From Sphaerolaimus hirsutus (taxonomy: Eukaryota > Nematoda > Chromadorea > Monhysterida > Sphaerolaimidae), in assembly GCA_964036195.1 (NCBI GenBank), contig OZ038452.1:12084704-12148703 (forward strand): DNA of 64,000 nt. The letters run 5' to 3'. Positions 53,548 to 64,000 of the stretch are shown here, piece after piece (position 1 is the first letter of the stretch; each line of letters begins with the position of its first letter). The position numbers and the translations under genes were made by a program. Below the pieces are notes generated by a model. That model made no database searches and was not told the DNA's origin. It worked only from the letters and a program-made list of their open reading frames with translations.

Positions 53548-53984
53548 GCTTACGGCTTCATCGGTGGGTAGCGAGGTTGGAATACACTACCTACGTATTT
53601 ATCAGTGACTTTATCAGAATGTAGGGCAGGCGGCCATGCCCGTGGATTGGACAGACTTGTCCCAACCAACGCAACATTGCAGTGCTATCAGTGGGGTTTT
53701 GTTGTGATGCAACGTGTGTTATGTGATGTGATGCAACGAATACGCGGCCCCAGCCAGTACACTGACGGTTTTTTCAGTAGAGATGCGCTTTCCAAAATCA
53801 ACATAGGTGACTGATAAATGTGTCATGTCATGTAGATGAATAAGATGAAAATCAGTGGGCTGGCATGCCACTTCCGGTGATAGGCGATCGGCTCCTTTGC
53901 GCTAAATATAGAGACGAAAAGATCATTGGATACGTGCAACAAGTAAGTTTGCAATGAGCACGCAATCTGTAATGCGAGAACTGG
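53548..53984. promoter_or_regulatory. Short intergenic interval between the HEAT gene start and the retroelement leader
   Basis: About 440 bp lie between the HEAT start codon and the first retroelement hairpin. I find no TATA box in a convincing position for the minus-strand gene. By position it should hold the HEAT promoter; this is inference only. Confidence 0.3.
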
Positions 53985-53988
53985 CGGC

Positions 53989-54031
53989 GGGTCACCAAAG
54001 TGCTAGACCTATGTCTCTGGGACGGTGACCC
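53989..54031 (+). repeat. CCTACGYC hairpin 1 (leader)
   Basis: Outer stem GGGTCACC/GGTGACCC, AAA bulge, then GT-G-CTAGA, loop CCTATGTC (54008-54015), TCTGG-G-AC. It has a T.G wobble in the inner stem where other copies have C-G. Confidence 0.88.
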
Positions 54032-54109
54032 AGCGTCAATTAACGCTTACAAGCCCTAATTATGGCGCTTTAGCCGCCGGAAACGCCACACGGGCCATCT
54101 TTAGACCGA

Positions 54110-54130
54110 GCGACGTCATTACGACGTCGC
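54110..54130. repeat. Perfect 8-bp inverted repeat GCGACGTC/GACGTCGC
   Basis: Two GACGTC (CRE-like) hexamers lie in a hairpin with an ATTAC spacer. A related GACGTCATTCGACG occurs at 54342, in the second unit of the leader duplication. Binding by bZIP factors is possible but only inferred. Confidence 0.6.
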
Positions 54131-54197
54131 CCTATATGAAACCTAACTTAGAGGAAACTTATGGCGCGACGGACGCCAGCTATGGTAATTGGCGCCA

Positions 54198-54238
54198 AAT
54201 CACCAAAGTGCCAGACCTACGCCTCTGGGACGGTGATT
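54198..54238 (+). repeat. CCTACGYC hairpin 2 (leader)
   Basis: Outer stem AATCACC/GGTGATT, AAA bulge, GT-G-CCAGA, loop CCTACGCC (54216-54223), TCTGG-G-AC. Compared with hairpin 1 the outer stem has changed on both sides so that pairing is kept. Confidence 0.9.
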
Positions 54239-54364
54239 AAGCGCGAATCACCATAGAACGATATATCGATGGCGCTGTGCCGCCGGCCTTAATTAGCGGA
54301 ACGGCTTAGTTAGCCGCTTCTAGTCGTGAAAAGACCCGGGTGACGTCATTCGACGCCTCCGGGA

Positions 54365-54889
54365 ATGAAACCTAACTTTTGCGATATTTACGGCGCTTTC
54401 ATTAAAAAGGAAAAGCAGCGCCAAGCAAAAAGTCGACTCCCTCGAGCATGGCGGCCAAACGAGCGCCGGCGAACGACTTCGACGGCCGCGACAGCGCCGC
54501 GCCGCCGCCATTGGACGACCGCCGACCGCCGGAACCCGGGAGAGGGGGATTTTGGGTGTTTTGGGGATTTTTGTAAAGTGTTGAATCGGTCAGTTTTGGC
54601 CGAGTGCCAACTTTCGGAAAATGGCACTAAGTGTATTTTGAGGGGGTTTAAGCGCTGCCGCCGTATTTTGGCGACAGTTCATTGTTCAAAAACTTGTAAA
54701 TTCACCCCTACCCAGTCCCCGCGAGCGTCGACAGCGTTGGCCGCCGGAAACATCCGCGAGCGACAGACTTCGGCCGCTCAGAATTCTTGGTGGGAGTGGC
54801 CACCGGAAGGGAGGGCCCCGATAGCTCCTGAAGCCTACGCCCTTCGGAGTAGAGACGGGTCAACCCTTCTGGAGGGATATGTGCCTTAG
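54365..54889 (+). other. Open frame of 174 codons in the leader, uncertain coding status
   Basis: It begins ATGAAACCTAACTT and has no recognised domain; the product would be basic and Arg-rich (KKEKQRQAKSRLPRAW, RPNERRRTTSTAATAPRRR). It includes hairpin 3, read as EAYALRS. The same ATGAAACCTAACTT occurs at 54136 without a comparable frame. It lies upstream of the TATA/initiator pair, so it would not be in a transcript starting there. It could be chance, or an open frame in the LTR. Confidence 0.3.
54821..54855 (+). repeat. CCTACGYC hairpin 3 (leader)
   Basis: CTCC, bulged T, GAAG, loop CCTACGCC (54834-54841), CTTC, GGAG. The inner stem is GAAG/CTTC, unlike the CCAGA/TCTGG type, but the loop is the same. 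Confidence 0.82.
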
Positions 54890-55626
54890 GTTAAAAATTA
54901 GTAAAGGAAGTTGGAAGAATGCCAAAAAGGCAGTTTTTGTGTGTAGTTTGGCACATATCCCGTAGCCATTGCTGCCACAGGGAGGAGTTTGTGATTTTGT
55001 AGGGTGTAGGAGTAGGTTTAGGTTGTAGGTGCGCGGTAGGTGCCGCGGTATGTGATTTATTGCGTATTTCTGTGTATTTGCTTGTATTCATTTACCCACC
55101 TAACCCCCTTAGTTTGTGATAATTGCATGTGTTTGTGATTGTATTTTTATGTTCGCACTCATTTCTGTGTTTCGCACGTATTTCTGTGTTTTGCACTTTT
55201 GCACGTCATGTTTAGCTTCGCGTTGGCCGATTGGTACGCTGGTTTTGGACGAGCTCACGTTTGAGCAGAATACGGTTGTTTTTGTATTTTTGGTCCCTTT
55301 GTGTTTGTGTTTGCAGTTCGAGTAGCTGTGGATTCACTCGGCTTGTTTTTAATTGAATCACGCTTAGTTTGAGAGTCTCGCTCAGTTTAGTCATTTTTAG
55401 CTGTTAGTTTGTGCGTTTACATTCGGTAGGTTACTGTAGGTATTTTTATCTTCTAGTTTGGCACAGTTCCAGGTTTGGTTTTAGCTGGCTGAGTGCCAGA
55501 AGAAAGGTGTTCCTGAATGTCAAGTCACCATTCCCCTTGTTCCATTAAAAAGTAACCCTTGTGGTAACATGGCTCTGTTCAACTGAAGTCACTTATTTTC
55601 GGTACACTTTTGAATGCACTTTCGTG

Positions 55627-55712
55627 ATTGGTTGGCTCCGCCCAGCTGCAAACCAGTTTTGGGCACTTCAAACCCATAAAAGAGAGCCCCAATCCAGTGA
55701 TTATCATCAGTC
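55627..55712 (+). promoter_or_regulatory. Retroelement core promoter (CCAAT, GC box, TATA, initiator)
   Basis: In order: inverted CCAAT box ATTGG (55627-55631), GC box CCGCCC (55638-55643), TATA-like CATAAAAG (55675-55682) and initiator TCAGTC (55707-55712, likely start at A55709). The TATA-to-start distance of about 30 bp is canonical for RNA polymerase II. Transcription from here would read the giant frame after a ~670-nt leader. If this is an LTR, U3 lies to the left and R starts near 55709. Confidence 0.72.
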
Positions 55713-56380
55713 TATTCAATCCAATTCTAATTACTAAGTCAGTGATTTACCAGCTGAAATGAGCCTACCCTTGGTTATTCATTCTCTGCTAACTCTGGCA
55801 TAGGCCTTCTCTTCCCTCTGCACGGTGACATTTAGGTTCACAGGGGCAGGAGTGGCCACACGGAGCTGCCGGTATAGCTAAGATAGGGTGTTGTATGGGG
55901 AGAACCCACCATCTGTGATGCTTACTGTACGTCTGGACCTCTGTGGACTTGTTTTAGGCGTAGTATAAGCTGAAGTAGGCTGTACACCTATTGACTCGCT
56001 CTAGGCTTTCGTAAGGGCCCAAACAGTTGTGCTACGTCGTTGTAGATTACTTTTGATAGTGGTGCTGTGCCAAGCTAGGACTTAAGTACCTGGACTTGTG
56101 TGGTCTCTTACCAGTGTATCGTACTGCTATCCTCACCTGTCTGGTTTAACTTATATGACCCTGAGTGTTATTTAGTCATTTTTATGTTAATGTTTTGATT
56201 TGGAAAGTGGAAAGGTAAATTGGAAATATTTAAATACTTTGGAAACTTTAAATTGCAACGTTATTCGAGAAACCCAATTAGTGTAATTCGAGCTTACTCT
56301 GGTGCAACTAATTTCTCTACTTAGTCTATTGGCTCATTCCAGCTAGTGGATCTAATTAATTCTATTCTAACTAGTGAATC
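55713..56380 (+). other. Untranslated leader before the giant reading frame
   Basis: No protein or repeat is recognised. An in-frame TGA lies at 56375-56377, directly before the ATG at 56381. No standard primer binding site (18 nt complementary to a tRNA 3' end) could be identified by eye, and no AATAAA is present. Confidence 0.5.
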
Positions 56381-59300
56381 ATGATGGAAGTTGCTTTTAT
56401 TTGCTTGCATTCGAGTGATGTTCAATTGTCGGTTTTTGAAGCGTGGGCGAATCTTGTTTCTGTTTCTGAAAGTGCACCAAGTTCTGAAGGTTTCTGGGAG
56501 GTTGATAATTTGGAAATGGGCCCTGCTTTTGATAGTTTTGAACCCGTGTCGGAAATGTTTCAAATACAACGAAGGGCCACGTATGCGGAAAAGGTTCAGG
56601 GCGCCGATGATTTTGTGATTGATTCTGTTTTGCCCAATGGCGAGATAATTTGCGATGCTTCTCAGCAGTGGTTGCTTGATCACTTGATCATGGAGCCAGC
56701 ATTTATTGAGCCCGGAATTTGTGGTGTTTCTGAGAAAACTGCTGAGAGGCTGAAGAAAGTTGTGCAGCCTAGAAATCTTTGGTATTTGGTGGGTAAGAGA
56801 GGGAAATTACAGCCGCACGTTATTAGCCGCAAGCTTTTGCAATTTGCGCGACCGGACTTTGTTAGCTGTGGCAACCAAGTAGACCGAAAAGCTCAGAAGC
56901 CTACGTCCTTCGGAGTAGCTAGGTCGAAAGGCACCAAGCTGGTGAAGTTTGGCAGACAGGGTTCCCGCGCACGCGGCAAGCGTAGGGCCTGTAGGGCAAT
57001 TGTTGATCGTCCGGTGGACACCATGTCGCTCGTTGAATTATCAGAGCTGTGCGATTATCTAGTTGGCGTGTTGCCATCGTTTGTCGTTCCACGGGTGCAG
57101 AAGGCAGTTAAGTCCCCTGTTAGGTGCTGTACATTTGGCGTAATTAGGCAGGATGGGCTGCATGAGCGCATCGTTGAAAGTTCTGACGGAAATGGACATT
57201 GTCCAAGGTGTTGCTATTTGGCCCATAATGGGATCAGAAGTGAAGTTGCAGTACCCGGGGGTCCGTCAGATTATATTGGAGGTCCCACCTCGGGTCACGG
57301 CACCGTGTTGCACCCCCCTTTTACCCCCCCTTCACATCGCACACATAGCCACCCTCCACGCGTACAGGGCGTAGTGTTTCAGCTTAGCCCTATGCTACCG
57401 TGCACATACTGGAACCACAAATGTTGGCTTTTGCGTAAGCGTTTTGAACGTTTGAAATGTGTATCACGCGCTTATTACCGTTTGATTTCTTGGCACACTG
57501 CCCCATTCATGATGCACCAGAGTCAAATTTCCAAATTTGAGAAACTACGATACACCATGCCCTGGCGGCGATTTTTGATGCGAATTTTGAAATTTCCAAA
57601 AAACCTTTCATGTCCCGCGTCAGTCAATTGTCAATTCAAAACTCTCGAAACTTTTGATGTTGAGCCAGAGCTATGTCAATCATGTGAAAAATACGTGACC
57701 ACTGACTACTCTCATGACTCGTTTGATTATCAATACTTATATTTGTCAGTTGACGATGGTGCACCATGGTCCTTTGACGATTCTGAGCAATCAACTGTAC
57801 TAAGCTCGTCATCATGTGCTTCAATTGATAGTGATTCACTAAAATGCCAGACCTACGTCTCTGGGATTGTGGACCAATGTCAATTCGAGCATGATGTGGA
57901 ATTGGCAGCTGGCCAGTATTCGTATTTGCCAGCTGATGGTGGTGCATCAGGGTCTTCTGATGACCTTGAGTTTTCAACTGAATGGAGCTTGTCATCGCAT
58001 GCTTCAATTGACAGTGACTCACTAAAATGCCAGACCGACGCCTCTGGGATTGCGGGTCACGGCCAACTTGAGCACAGTGTTGACTTGGCAGCTAGCCAGC
58101 CTAGTACTCTAGATGACTCTACTTGTGACACGGATGTAGTTTTGGAACATGTGTGCTCCACTACCTTGTCTGCGGCTCAATCGTTTCAAACAGTGTTTAT
58201 TGAGGACTCACTCAATTCTTTCGAAATTATTGACGATTATATGGCTGACCCCGCTGCACTGAGTGGAGCACACACGACGCCAGATGCCAATGATAATTAC
58301 ATGGTTCACGCCGCGGATATTAATATGTTGCAGTATAATTCATCCTTAGGTGTGGTTACTCGCCGCCGCGGCAATTCTAACCAGCAAAGCTTCTTTGAGC
58401 TAGACGGTAGGGAACGCGCGCGCCCTGTCGGTCAATGGGCCAGTACTAGCCGCCACGGTGTTACGTGTAGTGATGTTGGCGATTCTGTGGGTTCTCGGGG
58501 CCGGATGTCTGACCTGGCCACCCCAGCATATACCGCTGAGCCAGGGATGTCATATGTCAACGAGTCCCGGGATACAGTGTTAAGACGACCCGACGAAGAA
58601 TTCCCTCACGCTACTAGTTCCCCCTGCTTGAGCATTCAATCTCCTAGCAGACCCCCCACCTCTGTCTGTGACCTAAGCACCCCCGTGAAACCACCACCTT
58701 CTAACCCCGTTAATAGCCCTCAACCCCAACCCTTCACTGGGCCGGTAAGACAACATCGAGAATTACTGACGAATAACCAATCAGAGATTGATACTATGAT
58801 TTCCCCCTTGCAACAAGCATGTGAACCTACTAAATTATGGGATCACCTGAAACCCTCAGATCAGTGCATTGGGGATGTGTTACAACCCTTTGAAAAACTT
58901 CTAAGCGAACTTGATCCCGAGATAAATAAGTTAGACCAGCTATTGTTTGACCTTGCCACTGTGACATCTCCTGACCCATCCCAGCAAACCACTCTGGATA
59001 ATGTTACCTCGGCCCTGATGACCCTCAGAACATGGTCACAGGCAATGTTGCCATTCCGTGGATCCCTGCAAGACTCTATTGACCGTACTCTAAGTGTTCA
59101 CTTGAAACCCCGGGTTGACTCCCTAGCGGGTGATTTACAGTCCCTACTGAGTAACTTTTGTGCTGATGCGAATGCCCTAACTAAGCCCCCCGTGGATGTG
59201 TCCACGCTGGCTCAGAGACAAGCGAACCAGCAAATACTGGCAGCGTCAGACCCTGGCCCCGCGCGCCCACAGTCACGCGCCTACCCTGTTCAGTGTGCAC

Positions 59301-62300
59301 TTGCGTTTGTGCAATCCGTTTTGCTCGTTTCTGCACAGTCAGCAAGGGATTGGACTACCCTTCGTTCTCAGATTCAGTCGAAATCAACGGCTGGTGTTTT
59401 TGGCCTAGAAAATAAGGGAGTATCCCAAACAGTGCGCGCTGCAGCTCTGCGTAGTTTGACAGAAGCCTGGGTTTACCTCGATGTGCACCGAACCGGATTT
59501 AGCACGTACATGCCATTGCTTGGCACCTTGCCAGAAACAGCTCGGTACGCTATGGCACAATTTCATGGGTGCATAGCTGAAGGCATTCGCCTCAACCATG
59601 CGTTTGCGGATATATTACCTGAGATTAAGCGCCAAGTTAATGGCCCTGTTGCTCGTAAGACAAGGAAAGAATTACTGGCACATCTTGGTAATACCCTGGA
59701 CTCTGCCCGGGACCTCTTGTGCCGCTTAGAGAATTTGGATTTTGCGCAGTACAATGCCCTCTGTGTAATGCATATTGGTCGGGTCTCAGACAGGTGTACC
59801 CCCCAGAAATGTCGGTTGGTGTGTCAGAATCTGCTGAACAATATTGGTTTTGGATTAGACTGGCTACACCAGTTGCGTGGAAAAACCCTTGTTCCGACAC
59901 CCAAACCACAACCTTCGAGAGTACTCGAGCCACACCAGAGTGCGCACCAACCATCAATGTATACTACCCCGTTGAACCGTAGCATTTCAACTTTACCCCC
60001 CGCCTGGAATAATGTCTTAGTAGCCCATCTAATGAGCCCCGATCCTATGCGGCGCTTGGCGACACACCAGTGGCCACCTGATCCTTCTATCAAAGTGCAA
60101 ACTGACCCGCCGCGCATTGTACTGACTGACTTATCCATGCACGCTTGGGTAGAACCTGTAGGGCCGGAGTTCTCTGTTGGCCCAGTGGCTGAGCTGGATG
60201 TCAAAACCACTTGGGTCGGTCGTATTCTGCCTACAGTCGGTATTATGGACACACCCTGGGCCATCATTGATCCACGGAACACCGATCTCGTGCGCGCGTA
60301 TTCTAAGTTGTTGATCGCCGCGTATTTTGAGTCTGAATACATTTTTCAACTCGTGTTTCGTTATGGCTGGTTCCCAGATAGCTTACTCACTGCATTTCAG
60401 CGCTGCGCCTTTCTTGTGCAAAAGCTTGTTGACACGCTTGACCGCTCTATTAAGCATGGTGAAACGGTAGGCATAACAGACACCTATCCGCTACCCGAAC
60501 AGTACCATATTAATGGTCGCTTTTTGTACAAGTTGGCTAGTGATGCTCGTCGCGATTACACACAAGTTGGGGCTAACTACAATAAGTTGGCACGACGATA
60601 CGGGGCGGTGCCTGTGCACACTACTCCGATGCTTCCAATTGACCGAAATAATCGCTTCGAGCATTCTCGCCGTCGCTTACAGTTGCCTACCGCTCAAAAC
60701 GCTCACTCACAGATGGTTCGGGTAACGAATAGTGGTAGCTATGATGCTAACGTAGATATGATTCAGCCAGATGATGTAGGAACGCGGGACAACCAATACG
60801 ATTTTCTGTTGTCACACCAGGGTTATCAGCAGCCTGACTCGGCTGGTGGAGCCCCTGGGCCCGCCGCTGTGCAGGCGCCCCAGCGATTATATCATACGGG
60901 ACACCAGCACACCGGTAGGCTCTCGGTTCCACCAGCACACCCTAGCTCTTCTGTAGCACCCACTTCGGCTCTAGATCAACTTAAGTCAGAAATGGACCAA
61001 AAATATGCTAATATGCGTGACCAGATGGAGGCCATGAACGCTAACATGCGAGCCCTATTAGACCAAAGGCGTGCTCAATCACGAGCTCAGCCCCAAGTTT
61101 CGCAACCAAATGTATCAAATGATCCGCCTAGTACCACAACTAATTCAGATGAGGATTTGGCTAAGCGTATCAAGAAGCTTAAGATGCTTGGTTGTCCCAT
61201 GTTCTCGGGTAAAGCGTCTGTTGATGTCGGCCAATGGCTAGCACAGTTTACGGCGAAATGTAGAATCTGCAAAATCGCCTCTGACGAAGAAAGGGCTTTG
61301 ACTCTGGCCGCTGTGTTGGAACATGATGCAGCTACGCTGTGTTATGGTCAACCGCAGGAAGTCCAGACCTCTTTTACGAAACTGGAGTCAGCCCTTAAAG
61401 CTCACTTTGGCCAGGCGAAACATGTGCTAGCTACATGCCGAGCGATCACACTTATGAACTGGAAACCCAATGACACGATTGATACTGTGCGACGCCGTTT
61501 GATGACCGAATCGGCGCAGTTGAAAAATGTGAATCATAGCGAGCGCGAATTGCGTATGATTGAAGGATTTTTGCACGCTTTGGGTCAGCATAACTCTGAG
61601 TTGCGTCAATTAGTGGAGTTAAACTCTGCTGCACTTGAGTCTTTCGACAAGCTGATCCAGCATGCCAAAGTCGCTCAACAGTCCTTGGAAAACCGTAAGC
61701 TTGAGCAAGATCGCTCAGCTAAGGATACTGAGTTTAAGCGCATGCGCGATGAACTCTCGCAACTGCGGCAGCAAATGTCTAGTGCACGCATGGGCGACAA
61801 CCGTCAGCAGTTGGGTGGCGGTATGCTAGCTGGCCAACGGCCAATGTTTCGACCACCGATGGATATGCGCCAAAACCCGCGATTTGCTTTCCCTGCGCCA
61901 CAAGTGCAGCCTAGTGCTCAACCCCCGTTCAATGCACAGCGCATGCCGTTTAGACCGCAACGGGATATTCCGCCTATGCGTCTACCTCCTGCCGTACAAG
62001 GCCCGCGCTTCGCCCCGCGTCCAACAGTTGATGTAGGGCCACCTGTGGTAGCTATTGATAAGCCCGGTCGACAGCCTCCCAATGCTTATAAGAGCTATTT
62101 TTGCGACAAATGTAAAATGTCCGGCCATACCACTGAAGAGTGTGGTCGTCGTGCAACCGGCCCTACTTCATCTGGCCCTGCACCAGCCCAAACGCCGCGT
62201 GAGCCACTTAAGTGTTTTAAGTGCAATAAGCCTGGCCATTTCTCGCGTGAGTGTCCCGAAAACACGCCTGCGCAGAATGTCAATGAACTGTACGCACAGT

Positions 62301-64000
62301 ATGATATCATACCCGACGATCAAATTGGTTACACTGATTTGCAAGATGATTTAGTTGATGGGGTAGCAGACCCTAACGACTTGCAAGGTTATTATAACGA
62401 ATACCCTTCGGAAACCATGCATCAGTACCAATATGATTACTCGGATATGGTACCACCAGAGACAGACGCATTAGCCGAAGAGGAGAACGACGTGTGTGTA
62501 AACTTTCTGGGTTCCTGTCCAGAACTTTATAACCATTCTGACTCAACCCCAATAAGTTATTTTGACGTTTGCGTTACGCAGTGGGTGGACACGTCTACCA
62601 CTGAGCCAAAGGGCGCCGCGCCAAAGTGCCAGGCCTACGTCCCTGGGACGGCACGCGCGCTCAGCGACTCAGTGACTGGTAGGAGACCCACTGTAAGCTT
62701 CTGTAAAACCTTGACTGGTGTTCCCCAGGTCGATCATGTTTGCGATTCGATTCCACACCCAAGTATTCCAGAAATTCGCATTCAATCTTGCGAACCTGAC
62801 CAGACCTCAGCCCTCGCGGTAACCACGCAAAAGTCCCAAGCCTACGCCCCTGGGATTCGTGATACCGCAAGCACTGGTGACCTGGAGCATGTAGTACTGA
62901 GTAGTCCAAAAGGTGCGCAAGTACAAACACAAACGTCTACCTGGACACCATCTATTAATATGTTTCGCCCTATCAACCCCGCGACACACACGTCTGTAGT
63001 TGCCGCCCTAGATCTCAGCACTTCGGATGCTGGCCGAGAAACTTGTCGTGACCGTAGGAAATACTATTGGGAACAACTCTCCCCGGATTTAGGTGTTAAG
63101 CGCATGGAATACCAATGTAATGCCGCACAAGTGGTAGTAACCGAACCATTGGGTGCTCGCTTGCAAAGTGGCAAAATGACGCGTCCAAAGCACACTGTGC
63201 GCGATTTAATTACACCTAGTATTTACCACCGCGCCGTAATCCAAGGTGTAGGACCCTATCTAGTATTAGCTGATACTGGCGCGGAATTAAGTGCCATTCC
63301 CGTGTCTTTATTAGAGCAAATTGAGAGCCTTTCAGGGAAATGTTTAGACCGTCGAATCTTTCAATTGGAAAAACCCCTTGTTTGTAAAGGCTATACAGGA
63401 CATAAACATACGTTACTGTACTCGATCCAATTGACAGTCTCGATCGGTACGGAAACACGACGTATAAATTTCGCAATCTCTTTTGAAGGCACTCAGTGCA
63501 TTATAGGCATTGGTGATTATGCTAAATTTTGGTTCCTACCTATTTGTCCTGGCGCTTGTATGACTCGACCGGTTATGCACAGCAATAAACGGTATCTCAT
63601 CCCGGGCGATGAACCTTGCTTGCTCTATGAAGGGGAAATCCCCTACGTAGACACCGGGTTACGTACAGGCGCCATTGCAAAATCAGGTGAAAATATCCCA
63701 GAAGCAATTGAACGAGTTCAATCTAGCAATATTTACACTGTAGGATCACTTTTAGAGCCGTATTTGACACCGAAAACAGATGTAAATAGGCTTTGCTCTT
63801 CGTCACCGGTTCCCTATTTTTCGCCAAGTAAGGGCACCGGTGCGGTTGGGGTTGTTGCAACGGAAAACTGGGTATGCCCACCGCGCTCTGTGTCTTATGT
63901 GCCCGCTGAGTTGACAGGTGACCCCCAGGAGATACTCACCACGGTTCTTTTCAGCCCACATGCACACTTCTCCGAAAATTTCGAAAACACCTTGCTACCA
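56381..64000 (+). CDS. Giant Gag-protease polyprotein of an LTR retroelement (partial, 2540+ residues)
   Basis: A single frame with no stop from ATG 56381 through the last base; an in-frame TGA at 56375 fixes the start region. Residues 1 to about 1530 have no recognised domain; they include a 61-residue tandem duplication (about 456-577), Pro/Ser-rich parts (about 745-790) and a helical part (about 800-1190). A coiled-coil-like segment LDQLKSEMDQKYANMRDQ starts at 1531. A retrotransposon Gag domain spans about 1605-1775 (CPMFSGKASVDVGQWLAQF, SALKAHFG), followed by a second charged helix and a Met/Pro/Gln-rich linker. CCHC knuckles are at 1908-1921 (CDKCKMSGHTTEEC) and 1945-1958 (CFKCNKPGHFSREC). 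Retropepsin has its catalytic DTG at 2298-2300 in YLVLADTGAELSAIP, and IIGIGDYAKF near 2374-2383 matches the conserved ILG-type motif. Gag capsid-plus-knuckle regions are usually 300-600 residues, so the ~1500-residue extension is unusual. Reverse transcriptase should follow beyond the window. The frame is intact, so the copy is young or selected. Confidence 0.9.
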   Translation, partial: MMEVAFICLHSSDVQLSVFEAWANLVSVSESAPSSEGFWEVDNLEMGPAFDSFEPVSEMFQIQRRATYAEKVQGADDFVIDSVLPNGEIICDASQQWLLDHLIMEPAFIEPGICGVSEKTAERLKKVVQPRNLWYLVGKRGKLQPHVISRKLLQFARPDFVSCGNQVDRKAQKPTSFGVARSKGTKLVKFGRQGSRARGKRRACRAIVDRPVDTMSLVELSELCDYLVGVLPSFVVPRVQKAVKSPVRCCTFGVIRQDGLHERIVESSDGNGHCPRCCYLAHNGIRSEVAVPGGPSDYIGGPTSGHGTVLHPPFTPPSHRTHSHPPRVQGVVFQLSPMLPCTYWNHKCWLLRKRFERLKCVSRAYYRLISWHTAPFMMHQSQISKFEKLRYTMPWRRFLMRILKFPKNLSCPASVNCQFKTLETFDVEPELCQSCEKYVTTDYSHDSFDYQYLYLSVDDGAPWSFDDSEQSTVLSSSSCASIDSDSLKCQTYVSGIVDQCQFEHDVELAAGQYSYLPADGGASGSSDDLEFSTEWSLSSHASIDSDSLKCQTDASGIAGHGQLEHSVDLAASQPSTLDDSTCDTDVVLEHVCSTTLSAAQSFQTVFIEDSLNSFEIIDDYMADPAALSGAHTTPDANDNYMVHAADINMLQYNSSLGVVTRRRGNSNQQSFFELDGRERARPVGQWASTSRHGVTCSDVGDSVGSRGRMSDLATPAYTAEPGMSYVNESRDTVLRRPDEEFPHATSSPCLSIQSPSRPPTSVCDLSTPVKPPPSNPVNSPQPQPFTGPVRQHRELLTNNQSEIDTMISPLQQACEPTKLWDHLKPSDQCIGDVLQPFEKLLSELDPEINKLDQLLFDLATVTSPDPSQQTTLDNVTSALMTLRTWSQAMLPFRGSLQDSIDRTLSVHLKPRVDSLAGDLQSLLSNFCADANALTKPPVDVSTLAQRQANQQILAASDPGPARPQSRAYPVQCALAFVQSVLLVSAQSARDWTTLRSQIQSKSTAGVFGLENKGVSQTVRAAALRSLTEAWVYLDVHRTGFSTYMPLLGTLPETARYAMAQFHGCIAEGIRLNHAFADILPEIKRQVNGPVARKTRKELLAHLGNTLDSARDLLCRLENLDFAQYNALCVMHIGRVSDRCTPQKCRLVCQNLLNNIGFGLDWLHQLRGKTLVPTPKPQPSRVLEPHQSAHQPSMYTTPLNRSISTLPPAWNNVLVAHLMSPDPMRRLATHQWPPDPSIKVQTDPPRIVLTDLSMHAWVEPVGPEFSVGPVAELDVKTTWVGRILPTVGIMDTPWAIIDPRNTDLVRAYSKLLIAAYFESEYIFQLVFRYGWFPDSLLTAFQRCAFLVQKLVDTLDRSIKHGETVGITDTYPLPEQYHINGRFLYKLASDARRDYTQVGANYNKLARRYGAVPVHTTPMLPIDRNNRFEHSRRRLQLPTAQNAHSQMVRVTNSGSYDANVDMIQPDDVGTRDNQYDFLLSHQGYQQPDSAGGAPGPAAVQAPQRLYHTGHQHTGRLSVPPAHPSSSVAPTSALDQLKSEMDQKYANMRDQMEAMNANMRALLDQRRAQSRAQPQVSQPNVSNDPPSTTTNSDEDLAKRIKKLKMLGCPMFSGKASVDVGQWLAQFTAKCRICKIASDEERALTLAAVLEHDAATLCYGQPQEVQTSFTKLESALKAHFGQAKHVLATCRAITLMNWKPNDTIDTVRRRLMTESAQLKNVNHSERELRMIEGFLHALGQHNSELRQLVELNSAALESFDKLIQHAKVAQQSLENRKLEQDRSAKDTEFKRMRDELSQLRQQMSSARMGDNRQQLGGGMLAGQRPMFRPPMDMRQNPRFAFPAPQVQPSAQPPFNAQRMPFRPQRDIPPMRLPPAVQGPRFAPRPTVDVGPPVVAIDKPGRQPPNAYKSYFCDKCKMSGHTTEECGRRATGPTSSGPAPAQTPREPLKCFKCNKPGHFSRECPENTPAQNVNELYAQYDIIPDDQIGYTDLQDDLVDGVADPNDLQGYYNEYPSETMHQYQYDYSDMVPPETDALAEEENDVCVNFLGSCPELYNHSDSTPISYFDVCVTQWVDTSTTEPKGAAPKCQAYVPGTARALSDSVTGRRPTVSFCKTLTGVPQVDHVCDSIPHPSIPEIRIQSCEPDQTSALAVTTQKSQAYAPGIRDTASTGDLEHVVLSSPKGAQVQTQTSTWTPSINMFRPINPATHTSVVAALDLSTSDAGRETCRDRRKYYWEQLSPDLGVKRMEYQCNAAQVVVTEPLGARLQSGKMTRPKHTVRDLITPSIYHRAVIQGVGPYLVLADTGAELSAIPVSLLEQIESLSGKCLDRRIFQLEKPLVCKGYTGHKHTLLYSIQLTVSIGTETRRINFAISFEGTQCIIGIGDYAKFWFLPICPGACMTRPVMHSNKRYLIPGDEPCLLYEGEIPYVDTGLRTGAIAKSGENIPEAIERVQSSNIYTVGSLLEPYLTPKTDVNRLCSSSPVPYFSPSKGTGAVGVVATENWVCPPRSVSYVPAELTGDPQEILTTVLFSPHAHFSENFENTLLP
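56881..56927 (+). repeat. CCTACGYC hairpin 4 (in coding frame, different register)
   Basis: CTC, A, GAAG, loop CCTACGTC (56900-56907), CTTC, G, GAG, with an outer GACC/GGTC. The loop starts at codon position 1 here (AAG CCT ACG TCC) but at position 2 in hairpins 5-8, so the conserved feature is the nucleotide structure and not the peptide. Confidence 0.85.
57835..57873 (+). repeat. CCTACGYC hairpin 5 (in coding frame)
   Basis: Outer TTCAC/GTGGA (one T.G pair), TAA bulge, AAT-G-CCAGA, loop CCTACGTC (57852-57859), TCTGG-G-ATT. Compared with hairpin 2, the pair GT/AC has become AAT/ATT on both sides. Confidence 0.88.
58016..58058 (+). repeat. CCTACGYC hairpin 6 (in coding frame)
   Basis: Outer GACTCAC/GCGGGTC with one mismatch, TAA bulge, AAT-G-CCAGA, loop CCGACGCC (58035-58042), TCTGG-G-ATT. 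It is the tandem-duplicate partner of hairpin 5, with a loop change T to G. Confidence 0.82.
62616..62656 (+). repeat. CCTACGYC hairpin 7 (in coding frame)
   Basis: Outer GCGCC/GGCACGC with one mismatch, AAA bulge, GT-G-CCAGG, loop CCTACGTC (62634-62641), CCTGG-G-AC. The closing pair A-T of other copies is G-C here, a clear compensatory change. Confidence 0.88.
62818..62866 (+). repeat. CCTACGYC hairpin 8 (in coding frame)
   Basis: GGTA/TACC and CACG/CGTG outer stems, a CAAAA-containing bulge, then TCCCAAG, loop CCTACGCC (62841-62848), CCTGGGA. The G.G mismatch of the other copies is a C-G pair here, while one A.C mismatch appears next to the closing pair. Confidence 0.87.

Follow-up and report, generated by a model that had tools for sequence, protein, structure and literature searches.

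Repeated hairpins with a conserved octaloop in a giant Ty3/gypsy-type retroelement of Sphaerolaimus hirsutus, a candidate cis-acting RNA element

A stretch of 64,000 nucleotides from the nematode Sphaerolaimus hirsutus (the window, C3:12084704-12148703 of a 348 Mb eukaryotic assembly) ends within a Ty3/gypsy-type long terminal repeat (LTR) retroelement. The element is about 29.6 kb long, begins at window position 53968 and extends beyond the window end to L010:9575; L009 and L010 hold its continuation 3' of the window. It carries 21 hairpins built on one octaloop, and all of them lie on the sense strand. Their stems covary between positions, their core is conserved in non-coding sequence, and as far as was sampled they are confined to the element. 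The hairpins probably have a protein-binding role of some kind at the RNA level. We propose that they form a repeated cis-acting sense-RNA element of a recently active giant retroelement, for which packaging by Gag would be the most likely use, a reading that we hold tentatively, at not quite an even chance.

Number, position and geometry of the hairpins

An earlier note on this DNA had described eight hairpins, and the start of each loop was exact on re-check. The count itself was too low. A loop scan followed by a covariance model gave 21 hairpin positions (slots) in the window's copy of the element, 13 of them past the window end. Three are in the unique 3' region of the LTR (U3), five in the gag frame, one between pol and a third open reading frame (ORF3), and 12 in the 3' untranslated region (UTR):

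53980..54040, + strand: S1, loop CCTATGTC at 54008, type A, in U3
54188..54248, + strand: S2, loop CCTACGCC at 54216, type A, in U3
54803..54872, + strand: S3, loop CCTACGCC at 54834, type B with GAAG/CTTC stem, in U3
56882..56925, + strand: S4, loop CCTACGTC at 56900, type B, in the LTR and the gag frame
57824..57884, + strand: S5, loop CCTACGTC at 57852, type A, in gag
58007..58067, + strand: S6, loop CCGACGCC at 58035, type A, in gag; duplicated with S5 in a 183-bp tandem, 75% identical
62606..62666, + strand: S7, loop CCTACGTC at 62634, type A, in gag
62813..62873, + strand: S8, loop CCTACGCC at 62841, type A with CCCAAG/CCTGGG stem, in gag
L009:4577, sense: M1, between the pol frame and ORF3
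L010:2418, 2547, 2656, 2832, 2939 and 3136, sense: U1-U6, in the 3' UTR
L010:3444, 3564, 3761, 4050, 4191 and 5543, sense: U7-U12, in the 3' UTR

Leader and coding sequence had been named as the location. The coding part stands, with S4-S8 in the gag frame, but S1-S3 belong to U3 of the LTR (the border between U3 and the repeat region R being placed at a presumed promoter), and no hairpin lies between the supposed transcript start near 55708 and the beginning of the gag frame at 56378. S5-S8 (near 57850, 58033, 62632 and 62839) are read in a common frame, giving a K-C/S-Q peptide, and S4 is read in another. Therefore, what is kept seems to be a nucleotide motif rather than a peptide. The tandem duplication within gag covers window positions 57731-58096, with one hairpin in each unit. 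A further type-B hairpin with loop TCTACGTC was seen 101 bp past S3 in both LTRs of one other copy (L019:3006 and L020:7558).

Type-A hairpins have a fixed order. Outward from the eight-nucleotide loop come five pairs, a G.G mismatch or C-G pair, two pairs, a three-nucleotide A-rich bulge and an outer stem with an offset of +5; the outer pairs are (-n, n+5), and the three bulged bases lie within -12..-9. The G.G mismatch had been said to be kept in most copies, and it is present in 15 of the 19 type-A slots, with C-G in the other 4. The bulge had been described in the same way, which holds for type A: AAA occupies -11..-9 in all 19 slots and in 159 of 165 type-A copies. It does not extend to the second subtype, type B at 54834 and 56900, which combines the same loop with a GAAG/CTTC stem and has no AAA bulge. 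Since two stem types carry one loop, the loop would matter most. A kink-turn was dismissed, as the residues that follow the bulge make Watson-Crick or GU pairs.

Loop positions 1, 2, 4, 6 and 8 are invariant across the 19 slots; at position 7, 12 slots have T and 7 have C. Among 205 hairpin copies drawn from 31 sources, the loop is exactly CCTACGYC in 172 and off by one or two bases in the other 33; this set was picked by the loop and by similarity to the window slots, so strongly changed loops are missing from it. As for dispersed packaging signals, many stem-loops with a common recognition motif are found, here 21 positions with one octaloop. Dimerisation through the self-complementary ACGT of the TC loops, a possibility raised in the earlier note, is weakened: position 7 alternates between T and C, and the C loops have no ACGT, so kissing through ACGT is unsupported. 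Pairing of the loops with the element itself was also rejected. From the 5' LTR start to the 3' LTR start, all 19 CCTACGYC words of the sense strand are hairpin loops, and the complement GRCGTAGG occurs there only once.

With the covariance model built from the 19 slots, full-length type-A hairpins score 44.7-71.7 bits. Neither the antisense strand of the element nor the first 53.9 kb of the window gave a match at E<=1. For the type-B hairpins at 54834 and 56900, only the tips were matched (14-20 bits). CCTAYGYC alone is weak evidence, with 9 matches in the window versus 4.7 expected; combined with a paired stem, the loop becomes strong evidence. Some one-mismatch loops on at least four pairs, a few of them antisense, appeared in a loose loop scan; they have no type-A core and the model matches none of them.

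This single orientation bears on a possible function as duplex DNA sites bound by a host protein, as in the gypsy insulator, a cluster of Su(Hw) sites bound by a zinc-finger protein. Multiple copies of one core of about 30 nt in one element would fit such a function, as would the three LTR sites upstream of the supposed promoter. However, insulator sites are orientation-free, whereas all the model matches here point the same way; the loop is asymmetric, the stems pair although their sequence is free, and the sites spread over coding and 3' UTR sequence. DNA sites of this kind are quite unlikely.

Covariation and extent of the stems

Covariation was analysed on an alignment of 19 gapless slots with the structure read from the geometry. 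The type-B slots S3 and S4 were left out, and one row, L003:525, comes from a different copy, where it occupies the U12 position. U5/U8, U6/U9 and U7/U10 have similar outer arms and are duplicates, like S5/S6; S6, U8, U9 and U10 were left out of an 'independent' set of 15 type-A slots. Across the 19 slots, double changes occur in 16 of 19 pairs, in agreement with the compensatory stem change claimed earlier. Paired cells made up 80.9% of the alignment, versus 62.1% when shuffled and 30.3-48.0% in slid registers, and the covariation score was 0.536, versus 0.228 shuffled and at most 0.170 slid.

Helices of at least 24 pairs are common in this DNA by a loose count. Therefore, the outer stem was judged by arm-swap and shuffle controls, and helix length was dropped as evidence, long weak helices being everywhere in this DNA. 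When arms were swapped between 12 slots, Watson-Crick pairs dropped to 4.3 of 12, versus 7.2 with the slots' own arms, and to 4.6 of 16, versus 7.3. Of the 21 slots, 17 beat dinucleotide shuffles (<=0.05) with their own arms at 13-28 nt, 8 at 29-44 nt and 2 at 45-60 nt. These results by arm distance indicate that most slots hold a genuine hairpin of about 60 nt and some one of about 95 nt, and that longer minimum-energy helices are untrustworthy. The outer arms are mostly unrelated between slots, and all are centred on the same core.

Under minimum-energy folding, 20 slots form imperfect stems of 22-47 pairs, with small spaced internal loops, and U2 has 11 pairs. Such stems would suit hairpins that are processed from the element transcript to small RNAs in the manner of a pre-miRNA. 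However, the conserved part is the tip, the arms that would yield the mature RNA are free in sequence, and helix length by itself is not unusual in this DNA. Processing to small RNAs is hence extremely improbable.

The sense strand folded better than the antisense strand in 14 of 21 slots, with mean differences of -2.6 and -3.7 kcal/mol at two lengths (Wilcoxon p 0.025 and 0.037), and in 101 of 200 control stretches. Together with the single orientation, this modest evidence points to hairpins that act as sense RNA.

Conservation between copies

Eight copies of the element were compared in the 3' UTR, where nine slots had enough letters. The core varied at 12 of 261 sites, and in the same copies 119 of 503 sites varied in the outer arms, 140 of 350 in the near flank and 642 of 2,232 elsewhere. 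Of the 12 varying core sites, 8 fall at loop position 7 or at position -8, and position 7 differs between copies in 4 of the 9 slots. For S5/S6, 10 copies of gag were compared: 1 of 42 sites and 0 of 14 third codon positions varied in the inner stem and bulge, versus 159 of 1,128 and 84 of 376, respectively, in the rest of the region. Around S4 (10 copies, type-A geometry), 3 of 21 sites varied in the inner stem and bulge, 0 of 8 in the loop and 188 of 877 in the rest. For the LTR, 12 copies gave 6 of 63 varying sites in the inner stem and bulge, 17 of 96 in the outer arms and 294 of 792 elsewhere.

Confinement to the element

Two patterns of the hairpin were used to look through the host genome. 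CCAGACCTACGYCTCTGG had 317 matches (144 + 173) and TAAARYGCCARRCCTACGYCYYTGGGRYT had 527 (264 + 263), and the reversed control of each had none. The 527 matches correspond to about 8.6 per copy of the reverse transcriptase (RT) gene, near one element's load. Places were taken from about the first hundred matches of each pattern, with later contigs outside this sample. Among them, clustered places show the element's spacing, and five isolated or cluster-edge places that were fetched are all pieces of the element or its LTR at 86-88% identity. No hairpin outside the element was found among these places.

A small mobile palindrome of the Rickettsia palindromic element type, inserted repeatedly into the element, had been considered in the earlier note. 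The same core does occur at many places, including a coding frame in two reading frames. In contrast, no copy lies outside the element among the places checked, the fetched ones included, the covariance model gave no antisense copy, and the arms are mostly not common to different slots. The data largely refute this explanation, and the chance left to it is minimal.

Further afield, the core had no match in viral contigs. In bacteria and archaea there were 24 single core matches, versus about 60 expected by chance (an estimate assuming equal base use), and on these the model aligned only 19-22 core positions at 14-25 bits. A tRNA or known RNA family was rejected for the hairpins; Rfam gave nothing at the gathering score in the window and nothing at E<=1 in L010:2300-6600. 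Among the open-access titles brought up by a small literature search, none concerned such hairpins in a retroelement. Covariation, single orientation and confinement as sampled bear out the idea of a covarying structured element tied to one retroelement, on its sense strand only, for which protein binding or packaging is a possible role.

A probable protein-read RNA site

The loop is near-frozen, the 5' bulge, separated from it by a short helix, is frozen, and the outer stem is free in sequence but paired; this is the anatomy of a protein-read RNA hairpin. The type-A tip consists of the octaloop CCUACGYC, a stem of 8 bp that includes a G.G mismatch, and a 5'-side bulge of three A residues, and it is carried by about 10-30 further pairs of free sequence. 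A protein may read the loop and bulge, the outer stem merely holding the tip out, and the many sites may act jointly. The most likely reader would be the element's own Gag, which has a CCHC nucleocapsid, and the 21 dispersed sites could mark the very long RNA for assembly or packaging, like the dispersed packaging signals of small RNA viruses. A packaging role overall is somewhat short of an even chance. That an LTR element identifies its very long RNA by about 20 dispersed protein-read hairpins, with the reader encoded in the same element, is more doubtful still; it would be a clear example of multi-site assembly, in the manner of packaging signals, by a Gag-based reverse-transcribing element.

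Several observations weigh against a protein-read RNA hairpin for packaging. At the tip, A.C occupies -2/+10 in 8 of 19 slots, the loops vary at 4 of 16 sites in gag and 7 of 24 in the LTR, and the S2 loop is TTTACGCC in L017 and L023. The outer arms of S3 (0.060), S4 (0.255), S7 (0.220) and U4 miss the 0.05 mark against shuffles at 13-28 nt (S4 gave 0.015 at 29-44 nt), and the S5/S6 outer arms in gag are no less variable than the rest (14 of 64 sites versus 159 of 1,128). Among recent copies the outer stem showed no compensatory excess, with 2 double changes in 168 consensus pairs versus 0-3 in slid registers of 53-82 pairs. Counting the type-B slots and the inner stem as well gave six double changes, three of them in slots or registers with wrong or doubtful geometry. 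A strictly selected RNA stem should favour GU, and no wobble preference was found in the outer stem of recent copies (GU 22, AC 27), nor a clear one between slots at 13-28 nt (GU 30, AC 23). Divided by distance, GU versus A.C between slots was 19 versus 10 at 13-20 nt, next to the core, and 11 versus 13 at 21-28 nt. Finally, the hairpins crowd at the 3' end, with 12 in the 3' UTR and 3 in U3, whereas retroviral packaging signals are in the 5' leader; such placement suits export or localisation at least as well.

The near equality of GU and AC, the lack of compensation in recent copies, and arms that are mostly unrelated but centred on one core would all fit another history, in which only the core is functional and the outer palindromes are a by-product of RT template switching at the core, one arm being copied from the other. 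Such copying would tend to erase the kept bulge and G.G mismatch, however. In addition, variation is lower in the outer arms than in the near flank of the 3' UTR slots (119/503 versus 140/350) or in the rest of the LTR (17/96 versus 294/792), though not in gag, and the sense strand folds better than the antisense. Template switching as the source of the stems is improbable, though less so than the DNA-site explanation.

The 3' crowding bears on who the reader is. A host factor could use the hairpins for export, localisation or stability of the element's transcripts, as constitutive-transport or zipcode-like sites. The 15 of 21 sites in the 3' UTR and 3' U3 would be expected on every 3' co-terminal transcript, and for this reason host export or localisation comes close behind packaging. 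Against it, five sites lie within gag; in yeast ASH1 mRNA, some zipcode elements are within coding sequence. Host-factor sites would also be expected in host genes, and none was found outside the element among the places checked, although host sites need not fit the patterns used. A parallel is given by passages of PMC3079584, in which ASH1 mRNA carries four zipcode elements bound by She2p. On balance, a host factor is unlikely, though a more serious candidate than template switching, and packaging by Gag remains the preferred reading.

The retroelement and its copies

The following features define the element:

53968..57275, + strand: 5' LTR, 3,308 bases, TGTAAT start and ATTATA end, one mismatch versus L010:6268-9575
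55676..55711, + strand: possible TATA box and initiator (ATAAAAG ... TCAGT), from sequence only, used as the U3/R boundary
56378..64000, + strand: gag open frame, opening within the LTR and running on into L009:1-3591 as one frame
57277..57295, + strand: putative primer binding site TGGAGGTCCCACC..., beginning one base past the LTR end
62210..62260, + strand: CCHC zinc knuckle, nucleocapsid part of Gag (PF00098, E 2.1e-06)
L010:1571-1981 (C3:12160274-12160684): NADAR domain of ORF3 (PF08719, E 7e-14)

ATAAAAG ... TCAGT is presumably the promoter, with the transcript start near 55708, and the primer binding site resembles what we take to be the complement of the 3' end of tRNA-Gln. The left LTR ends of seven copies line up at TGTAATGC. 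For a target-site duplication, looked for in the window copy only, no match was evident between window positions 53958-53967 and L010:9576-9590. The gag-pol frame has about 3,738 codons in total, with RT, RNase H and integrase in the L009 part; the order of Pfam domains in pol is RVT_1, RNase H, H2C2, rve. A DTGA motif near 63,270, seen by eye only and with no Pfam match, may mark the protease. Ty3/gypsy polyproteins are among the best 120 of 3,443 matches in the protein database, at identities of at most 46%. The element thus has the LTR pair, primer site, zinc knuckle and RT-RNase H-integrase order of a Ty3/gypsy LTR retroelement.

ORF3 is a second long frame of about 2,280 codons, from L009:5529 to L010:2362, with the NADAR domain near its C-terminal end. 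Scoring of 8,000 candidates brought up no protein relative of its C-terminal part (786 residues) at E<=0.001, and ORF3 peptides had no match in viral contigs. In a Pfam search at E<=5 on pieces of gag, the pol end and ORF3, zinc knuckles, integrase and NADAR were accompanied by weak matches only.

An RT search of the host genome gave 1,752 first-look candidates, of which 1,638 were unscored, so copy counts are lower bounds. Of the 114 scored matches, 61 are close copies at 95-100% identity (one is at C3:12188411), and the other 53 are 36-39% identical and belong to other gypsy-type elements with open frames of up to 1,679 aa. No intermediate relative, with RT identity between 95% and 39%, was found among the 114. 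An open frame of 3,734-3,790 aa without a stop in the match is kept in 36 of the 61 close matches. The LTR pairs of seven copies have 0-10 differences per about 950 bases. The RT protein is nearly uniform, most of the 61 matches being 99-100% identical, and the DNA differs by 4-6% in three compared copies: their RT genes have 44-66 differences per 1,071 bases, 40-59 of them at third codon positions (for example 40 of 44). A near-uniform protein with DNA differences mostly at third codon positions argues that the RT is under strong purifying selection within recently active lineages. With young LTR pairs in addition, the copies look recently active rather than old debris.

Elsewhere in the window, a large tandem array at 3344-28320 consists of units of about 393-395 bp with GATAGATAGATAG cores. 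It is interrupted at 16.2-18.2 kb by TTTCCG-rich repeats and a stretch of opposite skew.

Comparison with known systems

The L-A totivirus binding site, HIV TAR and the iron-responsive element have a 5' bulge, a short upper stem and a specific apical loop that is read by a protein. They occur in single or few copies and have other loops and bulges, unlike the hairpins here.

Dispersed packaging signals in RNA viruses are difficult to prove, in part owing to the shortness and degeneracy of their motifs. Here, the motif is about 30 nt long, has a near-invariant loop and recurs about 20 times in a single natural RNA, strong internal controls included. Whether Gag-type particles use many tags versus one 5' signal would become directly testable. 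The motif also offers an unusually clean paralogous set of hairpins for RNA-protein recognition, and it may account for the way in which an RNA of this length is selected and folded. Were a host protein the reader instead, the hairpins would show how a retroelement recruits host RNA transport.

In size, the element resembles Burro of planarians and Ogre of plants, which the available text of PMC6431247 describes as gypsy-like elements of tens of kilobases with extra ORFs or domains; Burro exceeds 30 kb and has a very long polyprotein. It differs in its NADAR-domain ORF3, and Pfam shows none of Burro's extra domains here. In that text, 'hairpin' is used twice, both times for Helitrons. With retroviral packaging signals, as presented in the sections seen of PMC7599994, the hairpins share structured RNA near a Gag-coding region and a Gag with a CCHC knuckle. 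Those signals occupy one 5' leader region, whereas here about 20 copies are scattered, mostly 3'.

The hairpins also resemble the dispersed packaging signals of MS2, picornaviruses and the HBV pregenome, for which the consulted portion of PMC6281560 describes many stem-loops with a common loop motif on one genome. The motif here is far longer and nearly invariant, crowds at the 3' end and belongs to a Gag-type reverse-transcribing element. In that portion, the MS2 packaging-signal motif consists of loop bases and an A in a 5' bulge, and it is suggested that similar assembly may occur with Gag-like proteins.

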